Notes under the pieces: generated by a model
What the model was told of the DNA's origin: nothing
The model's database searches: none
What the model saw: only the letters and a program-made list of their open reading frames with translations
Translations under genes and position numbers: made by a program
IMG/VR virus record: IMGVR_UViG_3300017770_000118
Span: 1-27,302 of that record
Origin: a virus
Direction: 5' to 3' (one strand)
DNA length: 27,302 nt
In this document: one piece after another, positions 3,571 to 27,302 of the stretch
How the letters are laid out: each line of letters begins with the position of its first letter
Position numbering within the stretch: the stretch's first letter is position 1

Positions 3571-3572
3571 TA

Positions 3573-11694: not shown

Positions 11695-12473
11695 TAGAAT
11701 CCTTCGTCAACCTCACCAAATGGGTTTCTTTCTGTAAAGTCTAGTATATCATCTGTTGTACTAGACGTACCAAAACCTGCGTCTGACTCAAATGTTGAGT
11801 TATCTGCATATGGCTGTTGTGTTTGTTGATCATAAGTTTCAAGTATTAAGAAATTTTGTTCATCACCTTCCATCAATATATTACCATCTTCGTTTTCTAA
11901 ACTCATTTGATGAGCATACATGTCCAAAGACTTATCGTCTTCTAATTTATTGATGTCTGAAACATTTGTATCAATTCTTTCATTACTGTATTCAAATCTA
12001 GTACATCTTAATTTGTAAACAGGTAAGTTTCCTAATTGATAAAATGGTTGTTGATCTTCTACAAATTGAATTTCAAAATAAGATTTCATCATTGGGAAAT
12101 AAATTAGGTCACCTTCGTTAGGTCTACCTGATTTGATTAAAGTAGCTTGATCGCCTACTGCGTCATCCCATCTTCTTTTTGATACTGTAAATGTTGTATC
12201 ATCTCTTATCTCTAAACCAAATTTAGATATTAATTCTCTTTCACCTTGAAAACCTTCCGTAGTTTCAAAGTACATTTCTAATAGATAAGAAGCATTGAAT
12301 TTTGAAGCAACATCTTCACCAAGTATTAAGTCTTGGTTTACTAATGTTCTAGGTAGATAATAGACATCATGGCCATAAATTTTAAGGCCTTCTATTATTA
12401 AGTTTTCGTGTAGATTTTTCTCAGCCTGATTGCCGATCCCATCGCCACCTTGAAAGTAGTGATTAACTGCCAT
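11694..12473 (-). CDS. gp14: Neck protein gp14
   Basis: Part of the head-completion (neck) complex that seals the portal after packaging and provides the tail attachment surface. Its 259 residues compare with 256 in T4. Family-like features are the N-terminal HYFQGGDGIGNQAEKNLHEN (residues 5-24), the EGLKIYGHDVYYLPRTLVNQ segment near 29-48 and VYKLRCTRFEYSNERIDTNV near 151-170. The last ~50 residues are acidic and low in hydrophobics. A double AGGATAGG lies before the ATG, and the gene starts 4 nt after gp13. No anomaly. Confidence 0.95.
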   Translation of the reverse strand: MAVNHYFQGGDGIGNQAEKNLHENLIIEGLKIYGHDVYYLPRTLVNQDLILGEDVASKFNASYLLEMYFETTEGFQGERELISKFGLEIRDDTTFTVSKRRWDDAVGDQATLIKSGRPNEGDLIYFPMMKSYFEIQFVEDQQPFYQLGNLPVYKLRCTRFEYSNERIDTNVSDINKLEDDKSLDMYAHQMSLENEDGNILMEGDEQNFLILETYDQQTQQPYADNSTFESDAGFGTSSTTDDILDFTERNPFGEVDEGF

Positions 12474-12477
12474 TTAC

Positions 12478-13293
12478 CTATCCTATCATGTAAGATACAG
12501 GTGTCTCGTAAGTGCCTCTTATGTCTTCTTCTAATTTTTGAACATCTTGTAGTGCTTCAGAATATATCTGTTGACCATTTAATGTCACACCACCGATCAT
12601 TGCTACACCATTAAATTTAGATAAGTTAGCGCCCCATTGTTTTTTAAACAGAGCAGTCACATATCTTTTTAAAAATATATCATTAAATACATCTGTCATT
12701 ACTGTTGGGTCTAATTTTCTATAACACTCAATAATTAAATACTCACCCTCATTCATATCTACTTTCCAGTCCATATCAATGTAAAGTTTATTGTTGTGTT
12801 GATTAAATCTAATTGGTTTTTCACCTACTAACACGTGGTCTAAAAAATCTAAATGCCTTAGAACCATATCGTAGTGTATTATAGATGTTGAAGAAAAATC
12901 ATAAAGATCATTTAATCTTAATTGATACCTTATATCAAACATATTGTTGCTATGTTTATCAGATAAAGGAAATATTCTATTGACAGCAAGTACAGAGTCA
13001 GGTACACCAATCCAGTTGTTGGCTTCTGTGTAAGATGTTGTTCTTCCACCAACCGAAGCAGTAACCGTTGAGTCACCTTGAGGTGATTTAAGTCTTGCTA
13101 AATCATTGCTAGTTAACAGATACTTTAGATAAACTCTTTCTATACCGTCATAGTGATATTGTGCAAAATATTGAAGCGCTTCATCTAATCTATCTTCTAG
13201 TTGTGCGTCATCAACATTTATCTCTATAACTGGCTTACCTAAGTTTCTTAATGCGTATTCTTTTAATTGTGCTCTACTTGCTGGCGTTGCCAT
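12478..13293 (-). CDS. gp13: Neck protein gp13
   Basis: Head-completion protein that binds the portal and, with gp14, closes the packaged head. The N-terminal LKEYALRNLGKPVIEINVDD (about residues 11-30) and the following QLEDRLDEALQYFAQYHYDG, which includes a Glu/Asp-rich helix, are characteristic of the family, as is AVNRIFPLSDKHSNNMFDIR near 103-122. Its 271 residues are shorter than T4 gp13 (about 309). It heads the packaging and neck operon: an exact late promoter lies 25 nt upstream of the ATG and AAGGGA is the ribosome-binding site. Confidence 0.95.
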   Translation of the reverse strand: MATPASRAQLKEYALRNLGKPVIEINVDDAQLEDRLDEALQYFAQYHYDGIERVYLKYLLTSNDLARLKSPQGDSTVTASVGGRTTSYTEANNWIGVPDSVLAVNRIFPLSDKHSNNMFDIRYQLRLNDLYDFSSTSIIHYDMVLRHLDFLDHVLVGEKPIRFNQHNNKLYIDMDWKVDMNEGEYLIIECYRKLDPTVMTDVFNDIFLKRYVTALFKKQWGANLSKFNGVAMIGGVTLNGQQIYSEALQDVQKLEEDIRGTYETPVSYMIG

Positions 13294-13328: not shown

Positions 13329-15308
13329 TTAACCAAGAGCAAGTGAAAATGCGATTGATTGTGCTTTACTTGATTTTGTGTCTAATTGTGTTTGGATTGC
13401 ACTAGTAACCCCAACCGTATGATTTAATTGTGTTGCAGTTGCTGTGACAGCCACATCTTCGTTTACTTTAGGACTTGTCAATGTTTTGTTAGTAAATGTA
13501 GTTGTAGATGAAGCAGTTGTAAATCCAGATGATGAGTTATCGTAGTTAGATAAGTCATTATCCACAACAAAATTTAATGTTGCAGCTGTATCATCATAGG
13601 TAACCGTAATTCTAGTTTCAGTATTACTACCAACCATTGCACCTACAATGTCTTGTATTCTTTCAGCGACTAACGATACAGCACCTGAAGCCACAGAGAA
13701 GTCTGCACTAGTAAATGAAGCGATACCTTTATTAGATGTTGTAGCGTCTTCTCCTGCGATAGTTAACGTATCACCAGAAGCAGTTGTATTAATACCTGCA
13801 CCTGCAAGAAACTCTAAATTACCACCTAATGAAACTCCTCCAGCAGTTGAACTTTCATCTGTAAATGCAAATGATGAATTTGCTAGCATAGTGTTAGAAA
13901 CTGTGCCACTATCACCTGTACCTATAAGAGTACCAGTTGCAATAGGTAGAGTTAATACTGCTGAACTACCTGCAGAATGTGGTTGTGCCTGTATAGTTTG
14001 TGCGTGAGCATTAGAAACCTCACAATAAAATTTAACTTTAGACACAGCGCCTGTGCCTGTTCTTATGTCAATTAAACCATCTGATACACTAACACCACCT
14101 GAAGTACCATTACCATCCATAACAACTTTACCAGTGCCGTGAGGCAATAGGTCAATATTAGCATTTGATAATGTAATAATGTCATTACCATTCATATCTA
14201 AATTACCACCTAGACTTGGTGTAGTGTCATCTGATAAGTCAGATAATCCTGCACCTGAAGCGGCAGTTGCAGAGATGAAAGATAAATTACCTGAACCATC
14301 TGTTGATAATATTTGATTAGCGTCACCATCATTGACAGGTAAAGTTAAAGTGACATTACCTGCTAAACTAGATGAAGCAACTAAAGATACAGCGTGTGTT
14401 GTACCAGATTTATAAATTTTATTTCCTGCACTTGATATTGTGCCATGTGTAAAAGCAAGATTGCCTGAACTTGAGCCTGTAAATGAACCTGTACCTACTA
14501 TAAACTCATCAACATTTTCATCAAAACCTATGATTGCATTAGCACTATCACCTCTTTCAATAACGATACCAGCGTCACCTGATGGTGTGCCAGTTGTACC
14601 AGTTCCTAATTCAATGAACTTATCTGCTATTGTTGTATTTGTAGATGACAAAGTAGTTGTACTACCACTCACAGTCATATTACCAGCAACTGTTAAATTA
14701 CCAGCAACACTTAAACCATCGCCTGCACCAATCTCAACAACAGTTGAGTCAGTAGATTTAATTACATTACCAGCAATATTAATTGTACCAGCAGTTAAAT
14801 CAGATACACCTGCGATTGTTGTAGCACTAGCACCTAAACTGATAGATGTAGTACCAACGGTTACAGCAGAGTTTGCTAATTTAGAATTTGCTATAGCAGC
14901 ACTAGATTTAATATCAGCATTTACAATGTTTGTAATTGTATTGTTATCTGAGTCTATTGTTTTATTTGTAAGTGTTTTAGATGTCGCAGAAAATAATGTA
15001 TCTAATTGTGATAAGGTAACTCTACCTTCAACACCACCATCTGATAATAATATCTGATCGCCTGCAACAAGTGTAGAACCTGTCTTATCTGTAGCTCCGT
15101 CTATGTTTACAATTGCTTCAACAGAACCAAATTCTAAAGCAGAACCACCTGTGTTTACTTTTAGTACCTGACCTGCAGAACCTATTGATAAAGCTGCACC
15201 TATACCACCATGTGCTAAAGGTACAAACTCACCAGTTTGATATTCTGCTAATCCAGTTGCGACACCACTATCATTAAATACGGTTCTTATAGGCGTTTTA
15301 CTTGACAT
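13329..15308 (-). CDS. Fibre-like virion structural protein
   Basis: A 659-residue, Gly/Ser/Thr/Ala-rich, repetitive beta-structured protein of tail-fibre type. Phage-fibre motifs recur: VPLAHGGIGAA near residue 29, SKTLTNKTIDSDNNTITN near 109, its later echo TFTNKTLTSPKVNEDVAV near 613, strands such as LTVAGNMTVSGSTTT, and a C-terminal LNHTVGVTSAIQTQLDTKSS typical of fibre ends. No catalytic motif or membrane segment is seen. It occupies the place where T4 has whisker fibritin (wac), next to gp13, so it may be a neck or whisker-type fibre; a long tail-fibre role is equally possible. The best ribosome-binding site (AGAGG) is rather far from the ATG. It is probably expressed from the promoter at 16891-16898. 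Confidence 0.85.
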   Translation of the reverse strand: MSSKTPIRTVFNDSGVATGLAEYQTGEFVPLAHGGIGAALSIGSAGQVLKVNTGGSALEFGSVEAIVNIDGATDKTGSTLVAGDQILLSDGGVEGRVTLSQLDTLFSATSKTLTNKTIDSDNNTITNIVNADIKSSAAIANSKLANSAVTVGTTSISLGASATTIAGVSDLTAGTINIAGNVIKSTDSTVVEIGAGDGLSVAGNLTVAGNMTVSGSTTTLSSTNTTIADKFIELGTGTTGTPSGDAGIVIERGDSANAIIGFDENVDEFIVGTGSFTGSSSGNLAFTHGTISSAGNKIYKSGTTHAVSLVASSSLAGNVTLTLPVNDGDANQILSTDGSGNLSFISATAASGAGLSDLSDDTTPSLGGNLDMNGNDIITLSNANIDLLPHGTGKVVMDGNGTSGGVSVSDGLIDIRTGTGAVSKVKFYCEVSNAHAQTIQAQPHSAGSSAVLTLPIATGTLIGTGDSGTVSNTMLANSSFAFTDESSTAGGVSLGGNLEFLAGAGINTTASGDTLTIAGEDATTSNKGIASFTSADFSVASGAVSLVAERIQDIVGAMVGSNTETRITVTYDDTAATLNFVVDNDLSNYDNSSSGFTTASSTTTFTNKTLTSPKVNEDVAVTATATQLNHTVGVTSAIQTQLDTKSSKAQSIAFSLALG

Positions 15309-15327: not shown

Positions 15328-16518
15328 CTAAAATTGAAATAGTGTAATATTACTATCTGCTAGATTACTCCCATTTGATAATGTAAATGTTTTTGCACCT
15401 GTATAAACAAACTTATCATCTACAACAGAGTTAAAGTTAAAACTAGTATTTGAACTTGACAATCCACCTGCCTTTGTAAAGAAAGGAACAATAGTTGCAG
15501 CTTGTTCAGCACCACCAGAACCTGTCACAGCAACAGCAATTTTGTTTGTACCTGCTTTTGAACCTTCAGGTAAAGTCACACCAGTTGCTGACACAGCAAC
15601 AGTACCAGTACCATCTGAACTAATCGTTGCACCACCAAGGTTAATTGTTTCTCCTGCCAAGAATATTTCTTTAAATCTTTTAGACGCACTACCTAAACTT
15701 CTAGTGCCATTACCATCAGGTATAATATCTTGGTCTACAGCAGATAAGTCACTTGCAACTTCTCCGAAGTCATATTTACCAGTTGTAGAATTATATTTTA
15801 ATGCGTATCCGTTTTGTTGTGCTGATGTATTAACATCATCCATTTGTGATATTTTAGTTGAACCACCACCACCGATTGATGACATTTGTTGAGATACTAA
15901 CTCTTTAAATTTAAAGAACTCTTTTTTAAGTCCTTCTAAATCGTTTATATCTTCGTTTAATTTAACACCAGTGTTTTTAGAAATTTTAGATAACTCTTTA
16001 AACACATCTTGTGGATTAATGTCTTTTGTTTCTGGCTTTTCTTCTACTTTTATAATGTTTGGATTTGCAATTTCACCAGCAGCTTGATCTACTAATGAAG
16101 GCTCTGTTAATAATACTTGATTTGCTTGATGTACAGCTTCTTTAATTTCATCTAAATTAGGTTCTTGTTCTTTTTTAATTTGTTTATCTAATTCTTCTAT
16201 ATCGTAAGCCTCTGTGTCTAATTCATTTTCTATAGGTTCTAAATCTTTTTGTGATTTTTCTGACTCAGATTCTTTTTCTTCTTTTGCAAAAAGTAATTTT
16301 TCTAATTGTAATAATTTCTTTTGATCATTTTCTCTTTGCTCTTTTAGTTTTTTCTTTTCGCTGTTTATGGCAGAAAAGAAATCCTTTAATTCTGTTGCTT
16401 TGACCGTGACAGATACTTTGTCATTGCTTAATAATGATTCGTTTTCGTTTTGTTCTTTAACTGATTTCTTTTTACCTTCAGATATAATTTTAAAAAAATC
16501 AGATAACTCTTTAGTCAT
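15328..16518 (-). CDS. Two-part virion structural protein (charged helical N-terminus, fibre-like C-terminus)
   Basis: A 396-residue protein with two distinct halves. Residues 1-215 are Lys/Glu-rich and predicted helical or coiled-coil. They contain a repeated motif: LSDFFKIISEGKKKSVKEQ at 5-23 and LKDFFSAINSEKKKLKEQ at 44-61. After a GGGG hinge near 216-219, residues 220-396 are beta-rich and fibre-like, with TRSLGSASKRFKEIFLAGET (about 272-291) and INLGGATISSDGTG, motifs common in marine phage fibres. It overlaps the upstream gene by one base (TAATG). No enzyme motif is seen. The architecture suggests a fibre with an N-terminal anchoring rod. The specific role is unknown. Confidence 0.85.
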   Translation of the reverse strand: MTKELSDFFKIISEGKKKSVKEQNENESLLSNDKVSVTVKATELKDFFSAINSEKKKLKEQRENDQKKLLQLEKLLFAKEEKESESEKSQKDLEPIENELDTEAYDIEELDKQIKKEQEPNLDEIKEAVHQANQVLLTEPSLVDQAAGEIANPNIIKVEEKPETKDINPQDVFKELSKISKNTGVKLNEDINDLEGLKKEFFKFKELVSQQMSSIGGGGSTKISQMDDVNTSAQQNGYALKYNSTTGKYDFGEVASDLSAVDQDIIPDGNGTRSLGSASKRFKEIFLAGETINLGGATISSDGTGTVAVSATGVTLPEGSKAGTNKIAVAVTGSGGAEQAATIVPFFTKAGGLSSSNTSFNFNSVVDDKFVYTGAKTFTLSNGSNLADSNITLFQF

Positions 16519-16865
16519 TATTGTGTTGCCTGAGGATGAACTGTAATTATGCCGTAATGTACTTTCTCTACCGTTGAGTCATTTAAATTAATCTCAATGT
16601 CGTAAACATATCTACCGTCATCTAAACTAGTTGTATCGCTGTTTGATAATTGAATTTTATAGGTACCTGCTGTACCTGATACTATTGATATTGTGAATGT
16701 GGCACTTGCAGACTCAGACGCATAAGATTTTCTCATCTGACCTGTTAGTGTTAGTCCTGATATATCATACGCAGTAGAACCATCTGTGGTAACCGTTAAT
16801 GTTCTATTAAGATTAGCACCTTGATTAATACTGAAATTTTCTGCTGTTCTTGCTGTAGTAGCCAT
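16518..16865 (-). CDS. Small beta-rich virion protein
   Basis: A 115-residue protein with an Ig-like or baseplate-protein-like pattern: FSINQGANLNRTLTVTTDGS at about residues 11-30, an LTGQMRKSYAS strand near 40-50, and the C-terminal DDGRYVYDIEINLNDSTVEK near 82-101 followed by VHYGIITVHPQAT. This resembles small phage domains that carry N-terminal attachment modules of fibres or upper baseplate proteins, but I cannot assign a family. It heads a three-gene unit with the two fibre-like genes downstream and has an exact late promoter 26 nt before its ATG. AGAGAGA is the likely ribosome-binding site. Confidence 0.8.
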   Translation of the reverse strand: MATTARTAENFSINQGANLNRTLTVTTDGSTAYDISGLTLTGQMRKSYASESASATFTISIVSGTAGTYKIQLSNSDTTSLDDGRYVYDIEINLNDSTVEKVHYGIITVHPQATQ

Positions 16866-16898: not shown

Positions 16899-17654
16899 CT
16901 ATTTTTTTCTTATGTTTTCTATATTAACTGCCCCAAAACTTTCATGTCCTACACCTCTTATTGACTCGTATTGACCTTCTTTCCATTTCTGTTTAAAGTT
17001 AAATGATACTGATACACGCCAACCATCTTCACCTTTTAGATTACACATGTTTTGTGCTACTTCATGTGTTAACCAACCAGGAAACATTATCAATCTTCCC
17101 TCTATGGGTTGATAGTGTACCTCTCTCCAGTAGTGTAGTGGTTTATCTTTTGAGTGATCCATTATAGGCATATCAAGGTGTCGTTGACCACAAGGGTCTG
17201 TAAACCATATATGACCACAATTAGGTGGGCATTTAATATAATAGACACCAGACCATTGAGCGCCTGGGTGTACATGATTCTTATTGTGTGAGTATTTGTA
17301 ATTTACATTTGCCCACATGTTATCACATATAGGTTCAGTTTTAGGATGATATCCCTCTGCTTCAAATATCTCTTGTTGCATTTTGAACATTTCCTCTAAT
17401 AGAGTTTTATATTCTTTTCTGTGGTGCATATCAACAGCACTATGCCAACCTAGAGAATTTGATCTAGTGATACCTTTTTCATCTCTTTTTTTCCACGCCT
17501 TAATGTGTTTCAATAGATGTTTATTTAATTTTTCAGCGATAGGTAAATCTTTATAGAAGATAGGGGATGCAAAGAAAAACTCCCTTGCTAACCTACCTTG
17601 TGTTTTAGCAATTTTATCTTCTTTTTTAATTTTTTTACTTGAATGTTGGGCCAT
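16899..17654 (-). CDS. 2-oxoglutarate/Fe(II)-dependent oxygenase, phage type (1 of 4)
   Basis: Putative 2OG-Fe(II) dioxygenase of the TIGR02466-like group frequent in marine T4-like phages. Double-stranded beta-helix elements: NHVHPGAQWSGVYYIKCP at about residues 126-143, with probable iron ligands H127 and/or H129; FPGWLTHEVAQN near 191-202, with distal His197; and R213 in WRVSVSFNF, probably binding 2-oxoglutarate. Residues 1-20 are lysine-rich. The 3' end of the upstream oxygenase overlaps this start by 20 nt, so the two are coupled; AGGATGG is the ribosome-binding site. The substrate is unknown; family members hydroxylate protein or small-molecule substrates. The motif is H-x-H, not the classic H-x-D, so the ligand set is uncertain. 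Confidence 0.85.
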   Translation of the reverse strand: MAQHSSKKIKKEDKIAKTQGRLAREFFFASPIFYKDLPIAEKLNKHLLKHIKAWKKRDEKGITRSNSLGWHSAVDMHHRKEYKTLLEEMFKMQQEIFEAEGYHPKTEPICDNMWANVNYKYSHNKNHVHPGAQWSGVYYIKCPPNCGHIWFTDPCGQRHLDMPIMDHSKDKPLHYWREVHYQPIEGRLIMFPGWLTHEVAQNMCNLKGEDGWRVSVSFNFKQKWKEGQYESIRGVGHESFGAVNIENIRKK

Positions 17655-18264
17655 GTATCCATCCTACGATTGCATGTCTAGTTCCTTTAGTGACCTTACT
17701 TACTCTATGAGGTAAGAATGATGGATAGATTATACAGACACCTTTTTGTCTGAAACCTTTTGTATCTACTTTAGTTCCTATAAATTCAACATCACCACCC
17801 TCATAATCTTTACTGTCAGAAAGTTGTATTGTAAAACTTAATTTTCTATGACATACTGAATTACCAGTATCAACGTGCCAATCATAATGACCACCTTTTG
17901 TATATTTCATAATCATAGGTGCGTCAACATCTAAAAATCCTTGTACGTCAAATTTAAATCTAGCGTTATTAGCTTGTTTTCCTAACTCTAATATTCTTGT
18001 TAGTGGCCAACCTTGTTGATTAATAGGTAATACTTGTTGTTCTACGTTTCTAATTTTTTTATTGATACCACCACCAACTGTTTCACCTGACATCCATAAT
18101 TCATCTACACATGCTTTTACCAATGCGTCACATTGTTTTGTATCAAAAAATGTTGCGTGTAATACTGAACAGAATTGATTATTTGCTTGTAGATTGACTT
18201 GTGTAGGTTTTGTTTGATCTACTTTTGTTTTCTTAGGTGTTTTTATCTTTTTTGTTTTAGGCAT
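17635..18264 (-). CDS. Prolyl-4-hydroxylase-like 2OG-Fe(II) oxygenase (2 of 4)
   Basis: This is the clearest oxygenase of the cluster. It has the classic facial triad: H130-x-D132 in GGHYDWHVDTGN, distal H186 in PSFLPHRVSKV, and R196 in KGTRHAIVGW for 2-oxoglutarate. The strand RKLSFTIQLSDSKDYEGGDV at about residues 140-159 is typical of the P4H/PKHD-type fold. The 209 residues start with a Lys/Thr-rich tail of ~25 residues. GAGGAG is a strong ribosome-binding site, and a one-mismatch late box (CATAAATA) lies 26 nt upstream of the ATG. It probably hydroxylates an amino-acid side chain, possibly on a virion protein; the substrate is unknown. Confidence 0.9.
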   Translation of the reverse strand: MPKTKKIKTPKKTKVDQTKPTQVNLQANNQFCSVLHATFFDTKQCDALVKACVDELWMSGETVGGGINKKIRNVEQQVLPINQQGWPLTRILELGKQANNARFKFDVQGFLDVDAPMIMKYTKGGHYDWHVDTGNSVCHRKLSFTIQLSDSKDYEGGDVEFIGTKVDTKGFRQKGVCIIYPSFLPHRVSKVTKGTRHAIVGWIHGPTFK

Positions 18265-18289
18265 TATATACTCCTCAATTCATTTTATA

Positions 18290-18297
18290 TATTTATG
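18290..18297 (-). promoter_or_regulatory. Probable late promoter upstream of the P4H-like oxygenase
   Basis: The minus strand reads CATAAATA, one mismatch from the late box, overlapping the stop region of the upstream oxygenase gene. Its end is 26 nt before the ATG at 18264, the same spacing seen at the exact boxes. The off-consensus first base keeps this tentative. Confidence 0.45.
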
Positions 18298-19045
18298 ATG
18301 TTGTTTTAGTTGTGCTGTTAGGATCAAGCGTAGCTTGTAAATTAAAATGAATAAATCTAAACTTATCTTTACCCTTGTGATGTACATATGAATGTGGCAT
18401 GTATGAGTTAAAAAAGATAAATTGTCCTGGCTTTACTTTATAGTGTACCTGTTGACTACCATAATTTATTTTACTCTGATCTTTCATCTGTAAATCTGTC
18501 ATCTTTTTACCTGGTCTAGGATCCCAAAATACAGGATGAGATGTCTTCTCATTACATTTTAAAAAATAGAAACCAGATATGTGATTATTACCATGTTCAT
18601 GTATATCATGGAAACCACCTTCTTCAGGAAACTCTTGTACCCATAATTCAGTCAACAAAGGTATTCTTCCTGTTAGATTATAACCTTGCCAAGATAATAT
18701 ATTCCATGATTGTTGTAAAATAAGATTTGCTATTTCTTTAAATTCTGGATATTGCCATAACAATTCACTATGAAGTGAATTAGGCATAGTTTTAGCAGGA
18801 TCTTTAGGGTCTTTTATTTTCTTCTTCCAGTTTTTTTTAAGTCTTTCAATAATAGGATCGGATGCCTTGTTTAAAGGTTCAACCCACTCTGGTTTTTTAG
18901 AGATATATATTGGGCATTTAAAAGTTTCTTCAACATTAAATTCTAATTGTTCTTGTCCAGGCATAAGCATTTGTGGTTTGCTTTGTGCCTCTTGTTGTGT
19001 TGATATAAAAAGACTTTCTTCTTGTTTTTTAGATTCTTTACTCAT
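18293..19045 (-). CDS. 2-oxoglutarate/Fe(II)-dependent oxygenase, phage type (3 of 4)
   Basis: A 250-residue member of the same TIGR02466-like group as the gene at 16899. The core contains GGFHDIHEHGNNHISGFYFL at about residues 143-162, with candidate ligands H149 and H151; a VKPGQFIFFNSYMPHSYVHH stretch near 204-223 with distal H218; and R230 in FRFIHFNL. The first ~40 residues are Gln/Glu-rich and unlike the other copies. It starts MSKESKKQEE with AGGA only 2-3 nt before the ATG, so initiation is atypical or weak. It follows the unknown basic protein by 41 nt, with no late box that I can see in that gap. Substrate unknown. Confidence 0.85.
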   Translation of the reverse strand: MSKESKKQEESLFISTQQEAQSKPQMLMPGQEQLEFNVEETFKCPIYISKKPEWVEPLNKASDPIIERLKKNWKKKIKDPKDPAKTMPNSLHSELLWQYPEFKEIANLILQQSWNILSWQGYNLTGRIPLLTELWVQEFPEEGGFHDIHEHGNNHISGFYFLKCNEKTSHPVFWDPRPGKKMTDLQMKDQSKINYGSQQVHYKVKPGQFIFFNSYMPHSYVHHKGKDKFRFIHFNLQATLDPNSTTKTTS

Positions 19046-19086
19046 TTCATAATCCTATCATATTTTAATATATTTGTCAAGCTTTA

Positions 19087-19755
19087 CTATTTAACTGTAT
19101 ATTTACCTACTTTAGGCATTCTTCCACCTTGGCCAGGTTCACCTTTATTTAATTTTCCCCACTTAGGATCAACCCAACCTCTACCGAAATTGTTAGTTTC
19201 ACCCAACACCCATTGCCAAACTTTTTTTCCTCTTTCTTTTTTTGCCTCTTTACTTATGCCTTTTTCTTGTTCAGTAGGTTCTCTATCTAAAGATTTTCCT
19301 TGGGGATTCATATGAGACATTACTTTACCTTGATTAGCTGCGTCAAGCCACGCTCTCATATTCATGGATTTATTAGGTTTATATTCTTGTTGCCATGCAC
19401 CTGTAATTTTATTTTGTATTAATTTACCTTTTCCAGGTACTGCTTTTTTAGGTTTTGTATACCACCACCTTGATATGCCTCTACCCATATCTGCCATCTT
19501 TTTAGCAAATGCTTTACTGTTTTCTTTAAATGATCTAAAGTTTTTTGCGTTCTCAATATCAAGCTCTCTCATCACATGGTCTCTTCTCCAACGCATTGCT
19601 CTTTGTTCTTCACTTTCCATATATTGATGTTCAAACTCTCTCAACTGGACTAAAGTTATCTCACCTCTTTCAAAGGCCTTTTTCTTATCAGCATATGCGT
19701 GTAAGTTATGAACTTCCCACTCATAGCCTTCAGGTATTTTGTATTTATCCGACAT
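19087..19755 (-). CDS. Basic, tryptophan-rich protein of unknown function
   Basis: I do not recognise this 222-residue protein. The first ~95 residues are strongly helical and charged (FERGEITLVQLREFEHQYME at about residues 29-48, then EEQRAMRWRRDHVMRELDIE). The rest is basic, Gly/Pro/Trp-rich and probably extended, with GRGISRWWYTKPKKAVPGKG near 91-110, VWQWVLGETNNFGRGWVDPK near 178-197 and a GQGGRMPKVGKYTVK end. No signal peptide, membrane helix or catalytic motif is visible. An exact late promoter box lies 19 nt upstream and AGGAG precedes the ATG, so it is a late, probably virion-related or DNA-binding product. It sits inside the oxygenase/methyltransferase cluster and may share its substrate pathway. 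Confidence 0.8.
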   Translation of the reverse strand: MSDKYKIPEGYEWEVHNLHAYADKKKAFERGEITLVQLREFEHQYMESEEQRAMRWRRDHVMRELDIENAKNFRSFKENSKAFAKKMADMGRGISRWWYTKPKKAVPGKGKLIQNKITGAWQQEYKPNKSMNMRAWLDAANQGKVMSHMNPQGKSLDREPTEQEKGISKEAKKERGKKVWQWVLGETNNFGRGWVDPKWGKLNKGEPGQGGRMPKVGKYTVK

Positions 19756-19773
19756 GTTATAATCTCCTAATTC

Positions 19774-19781
19774 TATTTATA
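19774..19781 (-). promoter_or_regulatory. T4-type late promoter upstream of the unknown basic protein
   Basis: Exact TATAAATA on the minus strand, overlapping the last codons of the methyltransferase gene. Its end is 19 nt before the ATG at 19755. It probably drives this gene and the downstream oxygenase at 18293-19045. Confidence 0.75.
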
Positions 19782-20343
19782 CTCTCTTATAGACACAAAA
19801 ATATGCCCTTAGATATGGTTTAATATTGCTATAATAATATGTATCTCTTATACTTTCAAGTTTAAAGTTATCGCCAAATACACTTTCTAATTGTTTCTCA
19901 CTAAATCTATAAGGTCCCGATTGATTTGCTAGATGATGAAACCTTACCTCATATGGACTCAATACTTTCAATAAAATTCTACTATTTTTTTTAGTAATTT
20001 TTTTTATTATTGTAAAGTAATTATTGACTGTGGATAATACAAATATATTGTGTAGTAAACCTCTGTCAATGATGTAATCAAACTTACCTTTTATTTTAGT
20101 ATCTAATATATCATCTCTACTAAAGTCTTTTAATTTATATTTTAATTTTTCAACTATGTCTGTTGATTTAACTTTAAAACCAAGTTTTTGTAAAAAGAAA
20201 CTTTGTGTGCCATCACCACAACCTAAATCTAATATTGTTTTACTCTTTACAATATTTTTAAAATACTTCTTTAGGTCATCATCTAACTTATGATAATTCC
20301 AAGGCGTATTATTTTCTTCATATTGTTTCTGCCAATCAATCAT
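19777..20343 (-). CDS. Class I SAM-dependent methyltransferase
   Basis: A 188-residue Rossmann-fold methyltransferase. Motif I is ILDLGCGDGTQSFFLQKLGF at about residues 37-56, binding S-adenosylmethionine; motif II has the acidic residue D62 in STDIVEK; motif IV-like is GKFDYIIDRGLLHNI near 86-100. The N-terminus WQKQYEENNTPWNYHKLDDD resembles small-molecule (thiopurine/TehB-like) methyltransferases, which suggests a small or peptide substrate over DNA; this is inference. Its ATG lies 8 nt inside the end of the oxygenase at 20336, with only AAGAA upstream, so translation is probably coupled and the two may act in one pathway. Confidence 0.9.
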   Translation of the reverse strand: MIDWQKQYEENNTPWNYHKLDDDLKKYFKNIVKSKTILDLGCGDGTQSFFLQKLGFKVKSTDIVEKLKYKLKDFSRDDILDTKIKGKFDYIIDRGLLHNIFVLSTVNNYFTIIKKITKKNSRILLKVLSPYEVRFHHLANQSGPYRFSEKQLESVFGDNFKLESIRDTYYYSNIKPYLRAYFCVYKRV

Positions 20344-20995
20344 AATTTTTCTTAATCTGTTTTAATAGTTTGTCATTAATGTGTTTTGGTATTGGTGGTT
20401 GTGATTTACCATATATTGATGTGGTATAAAAATCAAATGATATGCAAACTCTATCATCATCAGCATTATATTCTTTCAATACACCATGAGATATGTCACC
20501 TGGGAATAATATTATTTTACCAGGTTCTACCTTATATAAAACTGTGTTTTGTGTGAACTCATTAGCCACAAGTATAGGATCATTCTTTCTATACTTTGCA
20601 AGATAAAGATTATCGTTTATATCTGTGCTGTTGATATATAACACGCCACTAATATATGCCTTTGAATGATTATGTTCAGAGACCTTAGAACCTTTTTTAG
20701 CAAAATTGACCCACGACTTTCCTAAATATAAGAACTCTTTATCTAAATCTATCCCTCTCACTTTAGCATATTCGATAGCACGTTCTTCTATGTAATCAAA
20801 TATCTTCTTAAATTTTTTATCGAAATGTATGTATGAATTTATTGTTGCAACACCTGTCTTTATATTACCTTGCACTAACAATTCTTTATTATTGTCAGGT
20901 GTGTATTTTTTTAGATGAGGTATTAGAGACCTTAGGTGTGCTAGGTCTTTATAATGCTCATAATATATTGGTGTAGGAAACCACTTTTGTATCAT
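20336..20995 (-). CDS. 2-oxoglutarate/Fe(II)-dependent oxygenase, phage type (4 of 4)
   Basis: A 219-residue TIGR02466-like oxygenase. The N-terminus WFPTPIYY is the family's usual start. The core has KVSEHNHSKAYISGVLYINS at about residues 104-123, with candidate ligands H108 and H110; VEPGKIILFPGDISHGVLKE near 156-175 with distal H170; and R182 in DRVCISFDFY. I see no ribosome-binding site before the ATG at 20995. It lies 16 nt after the glycine-rich fibre gene and overlaps the methyltransferase by 8 nt, a pairing that hints at sequential action. Substrate unknown. Confidence 0.85.
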   Translation of the reverse strand: MIQKWFPTPIYYEHYKDLAHLRSLIPHLKKYTPDNNKELLVQGNIKTGVATINSYIHFDKKFKKIFDYIEERAIEYAKVRGIDLDKEFLYLGKSWVNFAKKGSKVSEHNHSKAYISGVLYINSTDINDNLYLAKYRKNDPILVANEFTQNTVLYKVEPGKIILFPGDISHGVLKEYNADDDRVCISFDFYTTSIYGKSQPPIPKHINDKLLKQIKKNYD

Positions 20996-21011
20996 AATAT
21001 AGTATTATTTA

Positions 21012-22682
21012 TTACGCCCAGGATAAAGAAACTCCATGTATTTTTACTTGATTATTTGCCAATGCAAGTTTCCATCTCATAGACTGACCACTAGGTTGTC
21101 CTGATATGGTTGCTTGACCTGTTAATATACGTTGACCACTTGCACCTGTCACATAACCACTATCTGCCAACGTGACTGTTGTAAAATTACTACCACCATT
21201 TCTACTTATACTTGCGATAATATCTGTATTCAAAGTAGGTGTGTCTATATTTTCTTCAAATACAACTATCCTTGATGTAGTAGGTACTGTACCAGCAGCA
21301 AAAGGTTCTGAAACAATTGTTGTTGAAGCAGCAACTAATTTTGTTCCTGTTATTAACACATAACCATCTTCGCCTGCCTCACCTTCGCCTGTTCCTTGAG
21401 CACCTGCTTCATTTGTTCCACCAACGTATCCTGATATAGCTGTTCCACCGCCTTCTTCAGCAGCGCCTTCTTCAGTTGAACCTGAAGTAATTTGTGGGTG
21501 TGAGTGATATGATGAACCTCCACCACCTGAACCATAAGGACCAGGGGCATTACCAGCACCTGAACCACCACCTCCACCATAAAATCCAGCGCCTCCTCCA
21601 CCAGGGGCAGCAGCAGGCACAAAACCAAATCCACCAGCAAATAATGATCCGTTTTGTCCTGCCCCATTAGGAGCTTCACCACCTTGACCACCTTGTTCTT
21701 GGTCTCCACCTCCACCACTTGCCTCTGTCACAGGAGAACCACCACCTTCATTTCTATTAGTTTGCTCTGTTTGTGAATTACCAGCGTCACCTGTTAAACC
21801 ACCACCAGCACCACCACATCCACCATTTGAATATCCTCCAGCACCACCTGAACCAGCAACAACATAAGCAGTAGGAGCTGAATATTGAGGAGCACTTAAC
21901 GGAACTAAATCAACTGAAAAAACTCCTGCTAAACCTCCACCTGAACCATATAAACCTTGTTGAGGAGAACTAGAACCTCCTGTTTTACCACCATTTAAAA
22001 AAGCAGAGGCAATACCAGATGATTCTTTTTGACCACCTTCTCCTGATAAAACTTTTACTGATTGTCCTTGAGTCACAGCAAGTGTACCTTCAGCATAACC
22101 ACCTCCACCAGCACCACCATAATCTGTACCACCAGCACCCCATACTTTTATGTCAGCACTTGTCATGCCAAAAGGAACTGTAAAAGTACCCATTTGACCA
22201 CTACCAATTGACGGATTTGTACCTGTTGTTGAAGTATCTGGTTCTGTAATTGATGTAGTTGTAAATCCTGCTGATATAGCTGCTGGAGTTGAATTAGAAT
22301 ATAAATCTGAAGTAGCACAATAATTGTCATTAGTACCTTCACCCTCGTCTGTTCCTGATTCATCGTGGAATTCATCTACGACACCATCTACTAAATTGAA
22401 TACTGTTAAGTTTTCGTTTACAGCCATTTTAAAACCTAATAGAGCAACATTAAAATGTTCTCTATCAAAGTTTATTGATGAACTAGGTAAGGTTACTGTT
22501 TTAGATGATAAATCTAAAGTTGAAGCAAGATCATCTGCTGTGACAGTTCCGTTTCCTATTTTAGCTGAGTCTACTGCGTCTGCCCCAATCTTTGCTGTTG
22601 TAGCAACACCCGTAGCTAGATTATCCTCTTTGACCTCAGAGTCTTTGATTGCTGTTTTTACTAATTTATTTAATGATCCCAT
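21012..22682 (-). CDS. Glycine-rich tail fibre/adhesin, paralogue A
   Basis: A 556-residue modular protein. Residues ~28-65 form a polar repeat leader with KIGADAVDSAKIGNGTVTAD. Residues ~77-112 hold the segment LLGFKMAVNENLTVFNLVDG followed by an acidic VVDEFHDESGTDEGEG stretch. A beta domain (FTVPFGMTSADIKVWGAGG) leads into a long Gly/Ser/Ala-rich region of the Gly_rich_2 type (~185-430) with many GGGG runs. The last ~90 residues are a conserved end domain containing SGYVTGASGQRILTGQATIS, WKLALANNQVKIHGVS. The end and LLGF segments are shared with the three other copies here. By analogy with glycine-rich adhesins such as gp38 of T-even phages it probably sits at a fibre tip and binds receptors. 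I see no clear ribosome-binding site. Confidence 0.88.
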   Translation of the reverse strand: MGSLNKLVKTAIKDSEVKEDNLATGVATTAKIGADAVDSAKIGNGTVTADDLASTLDLSSKTVTLPSSSINFDREHFNVALLGFKMAVNENLTVFNLVDGVVDEFHDESGTDEGEGTNDNYCATSDLYSNSTPAAISAGFTTTSITEPDTSTTGTNPSIGSGQMGTFTVPFGMTSADIKVWGAGGTDYGGAGGGGYAEGTLAVTQGQSVKVLSGEGGQKESSGIASAFLNGGKTGGSSSPQQGLYGSGGGLAGVFSVDLVPLSAPQYSAPTAYVVAGSGGAGGYSNGGCGGAGGGLTGDAGNSQTEQTNRNEGGGSPVTEASGGGGDQEQGGQGGEAPNGAGQNGSLFAGGFGFVPAAAPGGGGAGFYGGGGGSGAGNAPGPYGSGGGGSSYHSHPQITSGSTEEGAAEEGGGTAISGYVGGTNEAGAQGTGEGEAGEDGYVLITGTKLVAASTTIVSEPFAAGTVPTTSRIVVFEENIDTPTLNTDIIASISRNGGSNFTTVTLADSGYVTGASGQRILTGQATISGQPSGQSMRWKLALANNQVKIHGVSLSWA

Positions 22683-22685
22683 GCG

Positions 22686-24440
22686 TTAAGCCCATTGTAA
22701 AGCCACGCCATGTATTTTCACCGCATTGTTAGCCAATGCAAGTTTCCAACGCATTGATTGACCACTTGGTTGTCCTGAAATTGTAGCTTGTCCTGTTAAA
22801 ATTCTTTGTCCTGAACTTCCTGTGACGTAACCACTATCTGATAAGGTTGCTGTAGTAAAATTACTACCACCATTTCTACTAACAGAGGCAATAATATCTG
22901 TATTAAGTGTGGGAGAAGCTACATCTTCTTCAAATACTACTATTCTAGCAGTAGTAGGAACAGTACCAGCAGCAAAAGGTTCTGAAACAATTGCTGTTGA
23001 TTGAGTGTTTGCAGTTGTTGAAACACTTCCAGAACCTGTGATTAATACATATCCATCACCACCTACACCTGTATTTGGCGTACCATCACCACCTGTTGAT
23101 GTTGCTTTACCGTTTGCAGGATCACCTGTTGTTGGATAAGCAGCTGGATAAAAAGGACTACCAGCACCTGGTGCAGATGTACCTGATCCACTACCACATG
23201 TACTACCACTTGTAATCTGTGGGTGACCTATATAACCTGATCCACCACCACCGTTTCCGTCTTGTCCACCACCATCGGGTCTTCCTCCACCACCGCCGCC
23301 GCCGAAATAACCAGCACCACCAGCGCCTCCTCTAGGAGAATTACCACCTTTAAATAAATTACCTGCTTGACCACTAAATAAAGGTCCACTACCTGCACCA
23401 CCACCAGCAGTTTGAGAACCACCTGATCCACCAGTTACCATAGGGCCATATCCACCAAAACCACCTGATCCACCAGTTGCACCACCACCTCTTCCAGTGT
23501 TAGCAGAGCCAGAAGGGCCTACATATCCACCACCGCCACCTGAACCAGCGATAATATATGCGTCTGGTGCCTCACCTGGACTACTCTCAGCAGCTGACCA
23601 ATCAAAATTTTCTATGAATACACCTGCAAGACCACCACCTCCACCAGCAGTTGTTTCACCACCACCAAAGAAACCACCAGAAGTTAAAGGTCTAGGACCA
23701 CATGTTCTAGGACCACCACCGATTGCATTTTCAGTAAGACCACCTTCACCTGCAAGTACATCTAATACTTGACCTGCTGTCACAGCAAGGATACCTTCAG
23801 AGTAACCTCCGCCGCCACCATTATTTTTAAAATTACAACCACCATAACCTGATCCTCCACCACCACCAAAAACATAAATGTTTGCAGCTGTCATAGCGGC
23901 AGGTACTGTAAACTTACCAGCTGTACCAGAACCTGGTGCAGGGTTAGTACCTATTGTTGAAGTATCTGGTTCAGTTATTGCTTTTGTACCGAATCCAGCA
24001 GAGACACAGAAAGGCGAACAAAATGAAACACCTGTTGGTGATGTACTATTGACATAAAAATCACTTGTTGCGTTATATGTGTCGTTTGAACCTTCGGCTT
24101 CGTCTGTTCCTGATTCATCATGGAACTCATCAACAACGCCGTCAACTAAATTGAATACTGTAAGACCGTCATTTACGGCCATTTTAAATCCTAATAATGC
24201 GATATTATCTTGTACTGGTCTTTTTAAACTATCTACTAAACCACCAGCAAGTGTGACTGTCTTAGGAGACAAGTCTAAAGATGAAGCTAGATCGTCTGCT
24301 GTGACAGTTCCGTTGTTTATCTCTGAACTCTCTACAGCATCAGCGCCTAACTTTCCAGTAGTGACTGAGCCTGGTGCTAATTTATCACCATCTACAGCGT
24401 TATTTGTTATACCTTTTGTAGTGACTTTAGTAAGAGCCAT
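22686..24440 (-). CDS. Glycine-rich tail fibre/adhesin, paralogue B
   Basis: A 584-residue relative of paralogue A with the same module order. The leader is NNAVDGDKLAPGSVTTGKLG (about residues 13-32) and then ADAVESSEINNGTVTADDLA. Next come ALLGFKMAVNDGLTVFNLVD (81-100) and an acidic DEFHDESGTDEAEGSND stretch, then FTVPAAMTAANIYVFGGGGG and the longest Gly-rich region of the set (~190-470). The end domain contains SGYVTGSSGQRILTGQATIS. Cysteines occur in the Gly-rich part and in FCSPFCVS, unlike paralogue A, so its tip may differ in structure or specificity. GGAG precedes the ATG. Only 3 nt separate it from paralogue A, so the array is one operon. Confidence 0.88.
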   Translation of the reverse strand: MALTKVTTKGITNNAVDGDKLAPGSVTTGKLGADAVESSEINNGTVTADDLASSLDLSPKTVTLAGGLVDSLKRPVQDNIALLGFKMAVNDGLTVFNLVDGVVDEFHDESGTDEAEGSNDTYNATSDFYVNSTSPTGVSFCSPFCVSAGFGTKAITEPDTSTIGTNPAPGSGTAGKFTVPAAMTAANIYVFGGGGGSGYGGCNFKNNGGGGGYSEGILAVTAGQVLDVLAGEGGLTENAIGGGPRTCGPRPLTSGGFFGGGETTAGGGGGLAGVFIENFDWSAAESSPGEAPDAYIIAGSGGGGGYVGPSGSANTGRGGGATGGSGGFGGYGPMVTGGSGGSQTAGGGAGSGPLFSGQAGNLFKGGNSPRGGAGGAGYFGGGGGGGRPDGGGQDGNGGGGSGYIGHPQITSGSTCGSGSGTSAPGAGSPFYPAAYPTTGDPANGKATSTGGDGTPNTGVGGDGYVLITGSGSVSTTANTQSTAIVSEPFAAGTVPTTARIVVFEEDVASPTLNTDIIASVSRNGGSNFTTATLSDSGYVTGSSGQRILTGQATISGQPSGQSMRWKLALANNAVKIHGVALQWA

Positions 24441-24443
24441 CTA

Positions 24444-26042
24444 TTAACTCCATTGTAATGATACACCGTGTATCTTCACTTGATTATTAGCCAAAGCGAG
24501 TTTCCATCTCATAGACTGACCTGAAGGTTGTCCTGAGATAGTTGCTTGGCCAGTTAAAATTCTTTGACCACTTGATCCTGTGACATATCCTGAATCTGTT
24601 AAAGTAGCAGTCGTAAAGTTTGATCCACCATCTCTACTAATTGAAGCAATTACGTCTGTATTAAGTGTTGGACTATCTACATTTTCTTCAAATACAACTA
24701 TTCTACTTATTGTAGGAACAGTACCAGCAGCAAAAGCTTCTGAAACAATTGTCGTTGATGTAGCAGCCGCACAAACTGCTGCTGATGTAATTAAAACATA
24801 ACCATCTTCACCCTTTACATTGTTAGTATTTGTATGTGAACCATCTTGTCCTGATTCATTTGTATCTGCAACATAAGCAGGATCTGCTGTTCCACCACCT
24901 TCTAAACCTGCTGCTTCTTCAGTTGCACCTGAACTAATTTGTGGGTTACCAATATAACCTGAACCTCCACCAGCACCTCCATGTTGACTACCTTGGTCAG
25001 TTCCTACACCACCACCATAGAATCCACCACCACCACCTGCCATAACAGCAGTAGCGCAGTTTGCAATTCCACCATACATGAAACCACCTGAAGCAGCTTC
25101 ACCACCTGGTGTTGAACCACCTTGACCACCAGCAGTTTGAGAACCTCCACCACCATAACCATTTGGACTTTTACCTGGTGTTGCTTGTCCTTTAGAAGTT
25201 TGTTCAGCGGATTCAGATGTTGCACCTTCACAACTACTTTGACCTCTGTCACCTTGAAGACCACCACCTCCACCACCAATAGTAAATACTGTGTTGCTAC
25301 AACTACCAGCTGCACCTCCGCCGCCTCCAGCAGCGATAGCAAAACCTGATGTTGGGAATGTATTACTTGGACCTGGTACAAATTGAGGATGACTAACTTC
25401 AACAGGACCTGCTGTTATAAATGATCCCCCTCCACCACCACCAGTATTAGGATTTAGAGGACCAGTAGTTGATCCTTCTCCACCACCACCTAAAGTAATT
25501 CTATCATATGGTTGAGGACCTTCAGCACCTTCACCTGGACCAGCACCTTCGCCAACTACTATATCTAATACTTGACCTGCTGTCACAGCATAATTACCTG
25601 AAGAAAAACCTCCTGCACCACCAGAACCATAATTTTTTGTTCCACCACCACCTGCAGCCCAAGCTTTTAAAGTGACACTTGTTATACCTGCTGGTACTGT
25701 AAATGTTCCAAACGTACCTGTACCATATTGTGGATTTGTTGCTGTTGTTGATGTTTGTGGTTCTGTAATTGCTGTTGTTGAAAAACCTGCAGATAATCCT
25801 GCGACTGATACTCCAGTATTTGTATTAGAGTTAATATAATAATCTGAATCTGCAACATATCTATCGTTAGAACCTTCACCTTCGTCTGTACCACTTTCAT
25901 CATGGAATTCATCTACTACTCCGTCAACCAGATTAAAGACAGTTAAACCTTCGTTTACTGCTATCTTAAAACCTAATAGTGATATGTTAAATTCATTGTC
26001 TTCAGTTTTTCCAGAAGCAAGTAATCTTGTTTTTAGTCCCAT
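24444..26042 (-). CDS. Glycine-rich tail fibre/adhesin, paralogue C
   Basis: A 532-residue paralogue lacking the ~60-residue leader of A and B: after a short MGLKTRLLASGKTEDNEFN start it goes directly into ISLLGFKIAVNEGLTVFNLV (about residues 20-39) and the acidic DEFHDESGTDEGEGSND stretch. FTVPAGITSVTLKAWAAGGG near 114-133 begins the Gly_rich_2-type region, with GGGG and GGGGG runs. The end domain matches the others (SGYVTGSSGQRILTGQATIS, then SGQPSGQSMRWKLALANNQV). AAGGAG is a good ribosome-binding site. It follows the 203-residue fibre protein by 16 nt. It probably forms or tips a host-binding fibre; the variable glycine-rich part would set specificity. Confidence 0.88.
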   Translation of the reverse strand: MGLKTRLLASGKTEDNEFNISLLGFKIAVNEGLTVFNLVDGVVDEFHDESGTDEGEGSNDRYVADSDYYINSNTNTGVSVAGLSAGFSTTAITEPQTSTTATNPQYGTGTFGTFTVPAGITSVTLKAWAAGGGGTKNYGSGGAGGFSSGNYAVTAGQVLDIVVGEGAGPGEGAEGPQPYDRITLGGGGEGSTTGPLNPNTGGGGGGSFITAGPVEVSHPQFVPGPSNTFPTSGFAIAAGGGGGAAGSCSNTVFTIGGGGGGLQGDRGQSSCEGATSESAEQTSKGQATPGKSPNGYGGGGSQTAGGQGGSTPGGEAASGGFMYGGIANCATAVMAGGGGGFYGGGVGTDQGSQHGGAGGGSGYIGNPQISSGATEEAAGLEGGGTADPAYVADTNESGQDGSHTNTNNVKGEDGYVLITSAAVCAAATSTTIVSEAFAAGTVPTISRIVVFEENVDSPTLNTDVIASISRDGGSNFTTATLTDSGYVTGSSGQRILTGQATISGQPSGQSMRWKLALANNQVKIHGVSLQWS

Positions 26043-26058
26043 ATTTCTATTTATCTCC

Positions 26059-26670
26059 TTAGATTGGTAGATACCTCACTCTTATTTCAGCACTTGCACT
26101 AGGTGGAGTACTAAAAGTTAATGTTGTTCCTGATAATGTGTAGTCATCACTAGGATGAAATACTACACCATTGACGGTTACTAGAATATCGTTTTGTGTT
26201 CTACCACTAGTACCGATTGTAAAACCTGTTGTTGAACCATCACCTGCTAAATTTGCATTTACTGAATATGCTAATGTAGTTGCGATATTAGATTTCTGTA
26301 TTTTTTTTAATGAGGTAGTAGATGTGTCGTATATTAATAATAAATCATCATCAGCTGCAAGGGCAGATAATTCTGTTTGTCCTGTGATTGCGCCTGTGCC
26401 TAGTATAGAGCCAGCGTCAAATGCTACGCCTAAAAATATGACAAATATATCTTCACCAGATTCTGGTGCAGCTGAGAACACTATTGTTGTACCACCACTT
26501 GCGATATTGTAAGCAGTCTCAGGTTCTTGTAATACTCCTGATACAGATACAAGTATTGCACTTGATGAACCTACTGTATAATTAAGAGTGAATGTAGTTG
26601 TAGAACCATCTGCTGTGAAATCTTGTTTTTCAAATGTTCCTGCAACAGGTGTCTTTCCTATATATGCCAT
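26059..26670 (-). CDS. Small fibre-associated protein with duplicated domain
   Basis: A 203-residue protein starting MAYIGKTPVAGTFEKQDFTA, an opening common among marine phage tail-fibre proteins. It contains two copies of one beta domain: the first at about residues 17-82 (DGSTTTFTLNYTVGSSSAIL, then VSVSGVLQEPETAY) and the second at ~140-203 (GDGSTTGFTIGTSGRTQNDI, then LVTVNGVVFHPSDDY ... RVRYLPI). The middle (~95-130) has an ALAADDDLLLIYDTSTTSLK segment. AAAGGA is a good ribosome-binding site and an exact late promoter box precedes it. It heads the downstream glycine-rich genes and probably forms the attachment or shaft part of that fibre; the role is inferred. Confidence 0.85.
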   Translation of the reverse strand: MAYIGKTPVAGTFEKQDFTADGSTTTFTLNYTVGSSSAILVSVSGVLQEPETAYNIASGGTTIVFSAAPESGEDIFVIFLGVAFDAGSILGTGAITGQTELSALAADDDLLLIYDTSTTSLKKIQKSNIATTLAYSVNANLAGDGSTTGFTIGTSGRTQNDILVTVNGVVFHPSDDYTLSGTTLTFSTPPSASAEIRVRYLPI

Positions 26671-26698
26671 ATACTAAAAATCCTTTTTCTTATAATAC

Positions 26699-26706
26699 TA
26701 TTTATA
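26699..26706 (-). promoter_or_regulatory. T4-type late promoter upstream of the fibre operon
   Basis: Exact TATAAATA on the minus strand in the 45-nt gap between the partial glycine-rich gene and the 203-residue fibre gene. Its end is 28 nt before the ATG at 26670. It should drive the fibre genes down to 21012 and possibly the adjoining oxygenase and methyltransferase. Confidence 0.8.
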
Positions 26707-26715
26707 ATCATTTTA

Positions 26716-27302
26716 TTACGCCCAGGCTAATGAAACTCCGTGTATTTTTACTTTCTTATTTGCAAGTGCTAACTTCCATCTCATACTTTGACCACTTGGT
26801 TGACCACTAATAGTTGCCTGACCTGTTAATATTCGTTGCCCACTTGAACCAGTGACGTATCCACTATCACTTAAAGTTGCGTTTGTAAACGTACTACCAC
26901 CATCTCTACTAATTGAAGCAATAACATCCGTATTTATTGTAGGTGTTTCAACGTTTTCTTCAAACACAACTATACGAGATGATGTAGGTACACTACCAGC
27001 GGCAAAAGCATTTGATACGATTGTTGTTGAAGAAGTAACTAAAGTTGTTGCTGTACCACTTATTAAAACATATCCATCATTACCGTGTGGTACGGGCATG
27101 TCAGGATATGAGTTGCCAGCTTCATCAACGTGAGCGTCATTTGTACCTGCTACATATTGAGGTATTGAAACTCCACCACCCTCTGTACCAGCGCCTTCTT
27201 CGGTTGAACCTGAAGTAATTTGTGGGTGACCATAATAAGATGAACCACCACCTGCTGATGAACCAAATGAACTTGGTTGTAGTAAAGGTCCACCACCACC
27301 TC
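26716..27302 (-). CDS. Glycine-rich tail fibre/adhesin, paralogue D (5' end outside the window)
   Basis: The reading frame is open from the TAA at 26716 to the window edge, so the gene continues beyond base 27302; an internal ATG at 27099 is not the real start. The visible ~195 codons encode the end of a glycine-rich region (SSAGGGSSYYGHPQITSGST, then EEGAGTEGGGVS), then NDGYVLISG and the conserved end domain with SGYVTGSSGQRILTGQATIS and RWKLALANKKVKIHGVSLAW. These match the same regions in paralogues A, B and C, including HPQITSGST, so it is a fourth copy of the adhesin. It lies upstream of the late promoter at 26699 and so belongs to a separate or preceding transcription unit. Confidence 0.87.
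   Translation of the reverse strand, partial: GGGGPLLQPSSFGSSAGGGSSYYGHPQITSGSTEEGAGTEGGGVSIPQYVAGTNDAHVDEAGNSYPDMPVPHGNDGYVLISGTATTLVTSSTTIVSNAFAAGSVPTSSRIVVFEENVETPTINTDVIASISRDGGSTFTNATLSDSGYVTGSSGQRILTGQATISGQPSGQSMRWKLALANKKVKIHGVSLAWA

Follow-up and report, generated by a model that had tools for sequence, protein, structure and literature searches.

The right end of the viral contig IMGVR_UViG_3300017770_000118 (27,302 nucleotides, called the window as a whole) carries, at 21012-27302, an array of glycine-rich paralogous genes. It is likely, in our opinion, that these genes form a multi-copy array of tail adhesins with a split scaffold and an inserted tip, shaped by gene conversion and cassette exchange. 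The set would belong to the host-recognition region of a pelagiphage-like relative of T4. Each protein would begin with an N-terminal linker on the virion side and continue as a jelly roll that resembles a carbohydrate-binding module (CBM). In sequence, this jelly roll would come in two pieces, first the LLGFK...DEFHDESGTDE module and then, for the remainder, the C-terminal domain of about 104 residues. A domain of the TNF-like/glycine-rich type, known from ALK and the Pam3 fibre, would be inserted between these scaffold halves; with its variable loops, borne on a stem of conserved glycines, it might face the host surface. The array would evolve by gain and loss of copies; gene conversion, which our comparisons support, would keep these halves similar among the copies of one genome; and homologous exchange through the constant halves might be the process by which the inserted domain is replaced or lost, both within a phage and from one phage to another, as the mosaic and presence/absence patterns of the sequences suggest. 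A single phage would as a result display several tips, with several specificities. All the sequences compared here are metagenome assemblies, and the phages named L or G with a number are viral contigs.

Anatomy and fold of the array proteins

All array genes lie on the minus strand. The open reading frame (ORF) of copy F, the last of the array (21012-22682, 556 residues), was the query of the paralogue search. Copies E (22686-24440, 584 residues), D (24444-26042, 532 residues, with a very short N-terminus) and C (26716-27302) are 60-73% identical to it, with E-values of 3e-148, 4e-140 and 8e-76, respectively, which is far beyond chance. Copy C is cut by the contig end, so that 194 residues of its 3' part are visible (ORF 26716-27300); it is complete, with 554 residues, at L005:7663-9327. 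The IMG/VR contig L005 (record of 46,906 bases) is 99.89% identical to the window over 12,856 bases and extends upstream, and its array holds six complete copies in the order A, B, C, a 203-residue gene, D, E, F. Since L005 continues the cut array of the window, the array has six copies and not four. The sequence-only reading had seen at least four paralogues in 21012-27302; they are real, but the window truncates the array and the gene at 26059-26670 is not a member of it. This interrupting gene encodes a 203-residue protein that resembles T7-tail-fibre-N/DUF4183 proteins in Pfam and PHROGs and may be a separate attachment part. Relatives of this gene were observed in 28 viral loci, and it precedes copy D in several phages.

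The six copies are composed of an N-terminal linker (short in D), the LLGFK...DEFHDESGTDE module, a glycine-rich middle of 294-355 residues containing 28-34% glycine, and the C-terminal domain of 104 residues. The N-terminus of copy A is longer by a stretch (MAYIGKSPST...) which, by inspection, resembles the start of the 203-residue T7-tail-N-like gene. The C-terminal scaffold domains (repeat family D1) are found at 21015-21326 in F, 22689-23003 in E, 24447-24758 in D and 26719-27030 in C. Over the C-terminal 110 residues, the other window copies are 83-85% identical to D, which confirms the initial proposal of paralogues with an alike C-terminal domain. The LLGFK(M/I)AVN...DEFHDESGTDE module (repeat family D4) is present, as had also been proposed, in all three complete copies of the window (22269-22452 in F, 24024-24207 in E and 25806-25989 in D), the copies being 73-76% identical to that of F. 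According to the segment boundaries, the middle covers about 317 residues in E (23004-23954), about 300 in F (21327-22226, F-type, also delimited by identities) and about 329 in D (24759-25745), where Pfam and a structure match mark it as ALK_LTK_GRD-like; in copy C, the visible part of the ORF at 27031-27302 belongs to it. The long middle had been described as differing between copies. It does differ, but it is a defined domain rather than mere filler: Pfam ALK_LTK_GRD is recognised above the curated cut-off in copies A and D. Copies E and F gave no Pfam match.

The AlphaFold2 model of copy D (44 sequences; mean predicted local distance difference test score, pLDDT, of 76) had only ALK/LTK structures as its top 21 matches in the PDB (E-values from 4e-6, probability 0.97-1.00, TMt 0.22-0.43). 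The best of them was the TNF-like/glycine-rich domain of ALK/LTK, and the best matches in BFVD were cyanophage proteins. Many fold-similar phage proteins in BFVD are named 'receptor protein-tyrosine kinase'; we rejected a kinase function, the label following the ALK-type glycine-rich domain. In a profile search with the family, the Pam3 tail fibre was the best PDB sequence match, albeit a weak one (E 0.04), and phmmer with copy D against the PDB gave no match. The middle is thus predicted to resemble a TNF-like/glycine-rich domain of the ALK-TG or Pam3 type. Its 61 conserved-glycine columns have an entropy of 0.41, against 2.17 in the 262 other columns.

A wider scan of viral contigs gave 68 loci and, counting the earlier contigs, 100 distinct copies. 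Copies of 227-246 residues in L082, L094, L099, L105 and L110 have no middle. Natural alleles of this kind were observed at L082:11809-12546, L094:1946-3358 and L110:10927-12339, as adjacent pairs in the last two phages. In the model of the middle-less copy of L094, the C-terminal blocks are predicted with confidence (pLDDT mostly 80-93), and the structures it resembles are CBM6 (TMt 0.67), CBM35 and Eph ligand-binding domains. To CBM6 and CBM35 the likeness is one of predicted fold (TMt 0.65-0.67), whereas no sequence similarity was found. As the predicted fold of a copy lacking the middle is a jelly roll, the scaffold seems to be split by an inserted middle, and the module and the C-terminal domain would be two parts of one domain.

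The array lies between a 2099-residue baseplate-side protein (phrog_358) and the neck genes at 11694-13293. In pelagimyophages, a hypervariable host recognition cluster of tail-fibre genes is found between VrlC and the neck gene gp14 (PMC7029224). By place and size the 2099-residue protein is likely VrlC, and the place of the array would then correspond to this island, although the text of that paper mentions neither glycine-rich proteins nor paralogues (PMC7029224). The location among tail and baseplate genes, the Pam3-fibre-like fold and the anatomy of constant glycines and variable loops suggest that the middle might bind a receptor and that the products of the array may be virion proteins. 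The same proteins could be structural or decorative, such as baseplate or fibre connectors or glycan-binding decorations, and not receptor binders. The predicted resemblance of the scaffold to generic carbohydrate-binding modules and the copies without a middle are compatible with such a role. We nevertheless consider it unlikely, given the variable loops on a conserved glycine stem, the predicted fold shared with the Pam3 fibre tip, the apparent location in the host-recognition region and a turnover of the middle that is faster than that of the neighbouring genes, all of which would be expected of host-contact surfaces.

Recombination within and between phages

Segment identities were compared by a permutation test in 28 copies from eight phages. 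The C-terminal domain is 86.9% identical within genomes and 80.7% between them (p 0.0002), and the module 76.7% and 75.1% (p 0.006); for the middle, these values are 47.1% and 47.0% (p 0.44). Array position makes little difference to the middles, which are 47.0% identical at equal positions and 45.9% at different ones, and positional orthology of copies A-F between phages was rejected, as the middles carry no signal of it. These comparisons support a concerted evolution of the C-terminal domains within genomes and middles that follow neither genome nor position. Consistent with the first point, trees of the C-termini place the copies of L054 in one clade (98/99) and those of G004 in another (98/94). 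In conflict with the C-terminal trees, the middle data reject a single clade for L054 (approximately unbiased, AU, test, p 1.5e-4) and for the window phage (AU p 1.1e-4). The F-type middle is common to the window phage, L053 and L054 with 77-82% amino-acid identity and forms one clade across the three phages (100/99); in two of the three pairs, the C-termini are only 71-75% identical.

Recombination breakpoints had been proposed as a check, and at the nucleotide level sharp breaks were indeed found, including at fourfold sites. Between copy E of G002 and the corresponding copy of L052, three segments are 90%, 56% and 88% identical, with breaks just after EGSNDVYC and just before TTIVS. Fourfold sites are identical at 46 of 59, 52 of 116 and 36 of 51 positions (78%, 45% and 71%), a step which therefore does not result from amino-acid selection alone. 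From the end of the last copy onward, the DNA of these two phages is 86% identical over 4.2 kb. L080 and L082 are 93-94% identical over more than 7 kb on each side, and have about 1136 and about 56 bases, respectively, exactly at the middle. The middle is likewise present in L095 and absent from L094, with flanks that are 96% and 95% identical, and it is cleanly absent from L082, L094 and L110.

Silent-site run tests for gene conversion on the C-terminal domain in five genomes gave p values of 0.0185, 0.006, 0.003, 0.002 and 0.0495, three of which survive a five-test correction. G004 and G005 differ at 16 of 17,357 sites, and the C-terminal end of copy A accounts for ten of these differences, of which nine fall within 58 nucleotides. 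In copy A of G004, six successive difference sites equal copy C within an exact match of 33 nucleotides, which could reflect either gene conversion or an artefact of the consensus. The contigs L041 and L043, otherwise 99.9% identical, show such a cluster of differences in the C-terminal part of copy A (L041:7117-7261), six of them matching copy C. The sequence-only reading had the array evolving by recombination between its copies. Recombination is borne out, but the middles seem to come mainly from a pool across phages and not from exchange within the genome. Middles conserved one-to-one among relatives without exchange were sought and not found, though the F-type persists in two other phages.

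Could the copies be old duplicates that merely diverged, with the module and the C-terminal domain under purifying selection and a fast-evolving middle, and no exchange? The middles can be aligned as one domain family, with identities of 36-57% for most pairs, and conservation is highest in the constant parts, as such a history would predict. The C-termini, however, group by genome and not by copy, the F-type middle is better conserved than the C-termini beside it in two of three pairs, and middles are cleanly absent in close relatives. Moreover, the fall and recovery of fourfold identity across the middle, unexpected from selection on amino acids alone, already disfavours this explanation, which we hold to be quite unlikely.

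As regards tempo, the window and L005 show 14 mismatches over 12,856 sites and no gaps; of these, copies D and F together contain four, with one amino-acid change, and the part of C that the window shows contains two. No middle has been exchanged between these two near-identical strains, nor between G004 and G005. In seven contigs of up to 54 kb, all genome fragments, no match was found to a reverse transcriptase (RVT_1, PF00078) or to a serine recombinase/resolvase (PF00239), and positions 18000-27302 of the window contain no inverted repeats of at least 30 bases. Since the middles are kept in near-identical strains and neither these enzymes nor inverted repeats were found, exchange appears slow at the scale of strains and no dedicated enzyme is needed. 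The data thus suggest slow cassette exchange with gene conversion, with no sign of fast switching, and general phage recombination through the constant ends would be the simplest mechanism. A diversity-generating retroelement or an invertible, shufflon-type switch that actively diversifies the middles within a population would also give constant ends and a variable centre in tandem copies; with all copies on one strand, and with the observations just given, it seems very improbable. Hardly more credible are assembly chimeras, in which misjoined short reads of the repeated ends would give false copies, swaps and middle-less genes: the assemblies are metagenomic, the ends are similar repeats and the 33-nucleotide tract of G004 could be such an artefact, but separate contigs agree over the arrays in both near-identical pairs, the middle-less form recurs with complete reading frames in many contigs of different phages, and the paralogues differ by more than 15% at the DNA level in most of their ends, which is enough for them to assemble apart.

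Genomic setting and known systems

The array was compared across relatives, another of the checks proposed, and the copy number at the same site was found to be 0, 1, 3 or 6. Six copies are carried by the window phage, G002 and L054, three by G003 (cut) and G004, and one by L121 and L223. Phages without any copy of the family, for instance L117, L118 and L123, carry instead one glycine-rich protein of about 505 residues (L117:12843-14384) which lacks the C-terminal scaffold and ends in the glycine-rich domain itself. The 2099-residue neighbour has a closer counterpart in L117, which has no array (72% identical), than in the six-copy phage G002 (56%); thus, the array does not track the backbone. 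L223 (NZEU01000035.1) is a contig of 118.7 kb filed in a metagenome-assembled genome of Porticoccaceae; the part fetched is a T4-like phage locus with one family copy, and it is probably a phage contig binned with a bacterium. Because this part is a related phage locus, the record gives nothing reliable on the host.

The window represents 27.3 kb of a marine T4-like myovirus with its genes on the minus strand, in the order end of the major head gene (by position), scaffold, protease, portal, sheath, terminase, sheath stabiliser and neck. Next come fibre-like genes and 2OG-Fe(II) oxygenases, and the glycine-rich genes occupy the right end. Preceding copy A, L005 encodes a baseplate wedge (phrog_438), the 2099-residue protein, a fibre/connector-like protein of 267 residues and a protein of 122 residues. 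The portal is closest to that of Pelagibacter phage Mosig (68%), then to those of Methylophilales phages (61%), and other tail-fibre genes are listed in the equivalent region of Mosig. The window phage may be a pelagiphage-like T4 relative with a SAR11-like host. Four 2OG-Fe(II) oxygenase genes (16899-19045, 20336-20995) and a methyltransferase gene (19777-20343) separate the array from the fibre and neck genes; for the oxygenase adjoining copy F, the viral-contig scan gave no close relative beyond the same phage. A possible counterpart of a fibre chaperone gene, of 115 residues (16518-16865), lies 4 kb from the array and matches 'L-shaped tail fiber protein assembly'. Different structural proteins with a similar C-terminal peptide (FAIAQAIALG, FAIAQAVALG or IAFSLALG), a shared tag, are encoded at 13329-15308 of the window, at L036:1087-1890 and in L117, L118, L121, L123 and L133. 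Three consecutive small genes (124-133 residues) at 2784-3947, between the protease and portal regions, are possible paralogues, the third having no match in Pfam or PHROGs.

Gp24, the tail fibre of Pam3, is present in virions, and its glycine-rich domain has been proposed to bind the host (PMC9608196). As is predicted for the array proteins, it is a phage tail protein with an ALK-type TNF-like/glycine-rich domain, a conserved glycine stem and a variable tip (PMC9608196). In Pam3, however, a single gene is accompanied by its own chaperone, and the published description includes no CBM-like C-terminal scaffold, whereas here up to six copies would carry the domain inserted in a split scaffold. 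The gp38 adhesins of T-even phages (T2, PP01, S16) have variable regions between glycine-rich motifs (PMC12892980), and they are comparable in the alternation of constant and variable segments and in that glycine-rich motifs carry hypervariable receptor-binding loops (PMC12892980). The domains are different here and the copies several, and no window copy matched the Pfam family GP38 at E <= 1.

Among cultured phages, full-length copy D matched only Rhizobium phages, in the C-terminal part, and its module-containing stretch gave no match; pelagiphage relatives were found only with a C-terminal query. By inspection, gp29 of the cultured pelagiphage HTVC028P has a linker, a module-like region and an ALK_LTK_GRD middle (E 3.6e-15), together with a C-terminal domain that is about 33% identical. 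In contrast to the array, it is a single copy, and its phage, whose genome of 36 kb includes an integrase, is not a T4-like myovirus. A ConA-lectin tail protein of a Rhizobium phage (RHph_Y52, QIG76741) and AGE60570 of HTVC011P share the C-terminal domain (34-40% identical) and a stretch resembling the module (DAFDDTSGI or VFQDGSGI), but their middles are different: a laminin-G domain in Rhizobium phages and a non-glycine-rich one in HTVC011P. A literature search, with most subscription papers outside it, returned no multi-copy array of such tips, no split-scaffold insertion and no concerted scaffold evolution, a silence that hints only weakly at their novelty.

Implications for host recognition in marine phages

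Several points weigh against an array of exchangeable adhesins. Presence in virions and binding to the host are inferred, solved structures are matched with moderate TM-scores (TMt 0.41-0.67), and how the module packs against the C-terminal domain was not seen directly. The middle is dispensable in some copies, as these do without it. Near-identical strains keep all their middles, the F-type middle persists over a long divergence, and the C-terminal data reject the F-type clade weakly (AU p 0.03, for a group chosen after seeing the data).

More speculatively, marine phages might draw on a population-wide pool of exchangeable binding cassettes (TNF-like/glycine-rich, laminin-G, others or none) for one split jelly-roll socket, the arrays being both an expressed repertoire and a local store of gene-conversion donors. 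We regard this wider idea as doubtful. Its logic would be comparable to that of antigenic-variation arrays, with a different use, namely attachment.

To conclude, glycine-rich adhesive tips have so far been described in phages as single genes. The idea lends itself to tests in laboratory strains, thanks to the natural alleles without the middle and to the cultured HTVC028P with its single-copy relative. If true, an array with as many as six copies, in which the socket is alike within a genome and the inserts are traded between genomes, would help to explain both how abundant ocean phages may have several host-binding options and the hypervariability of their host-recognition region.

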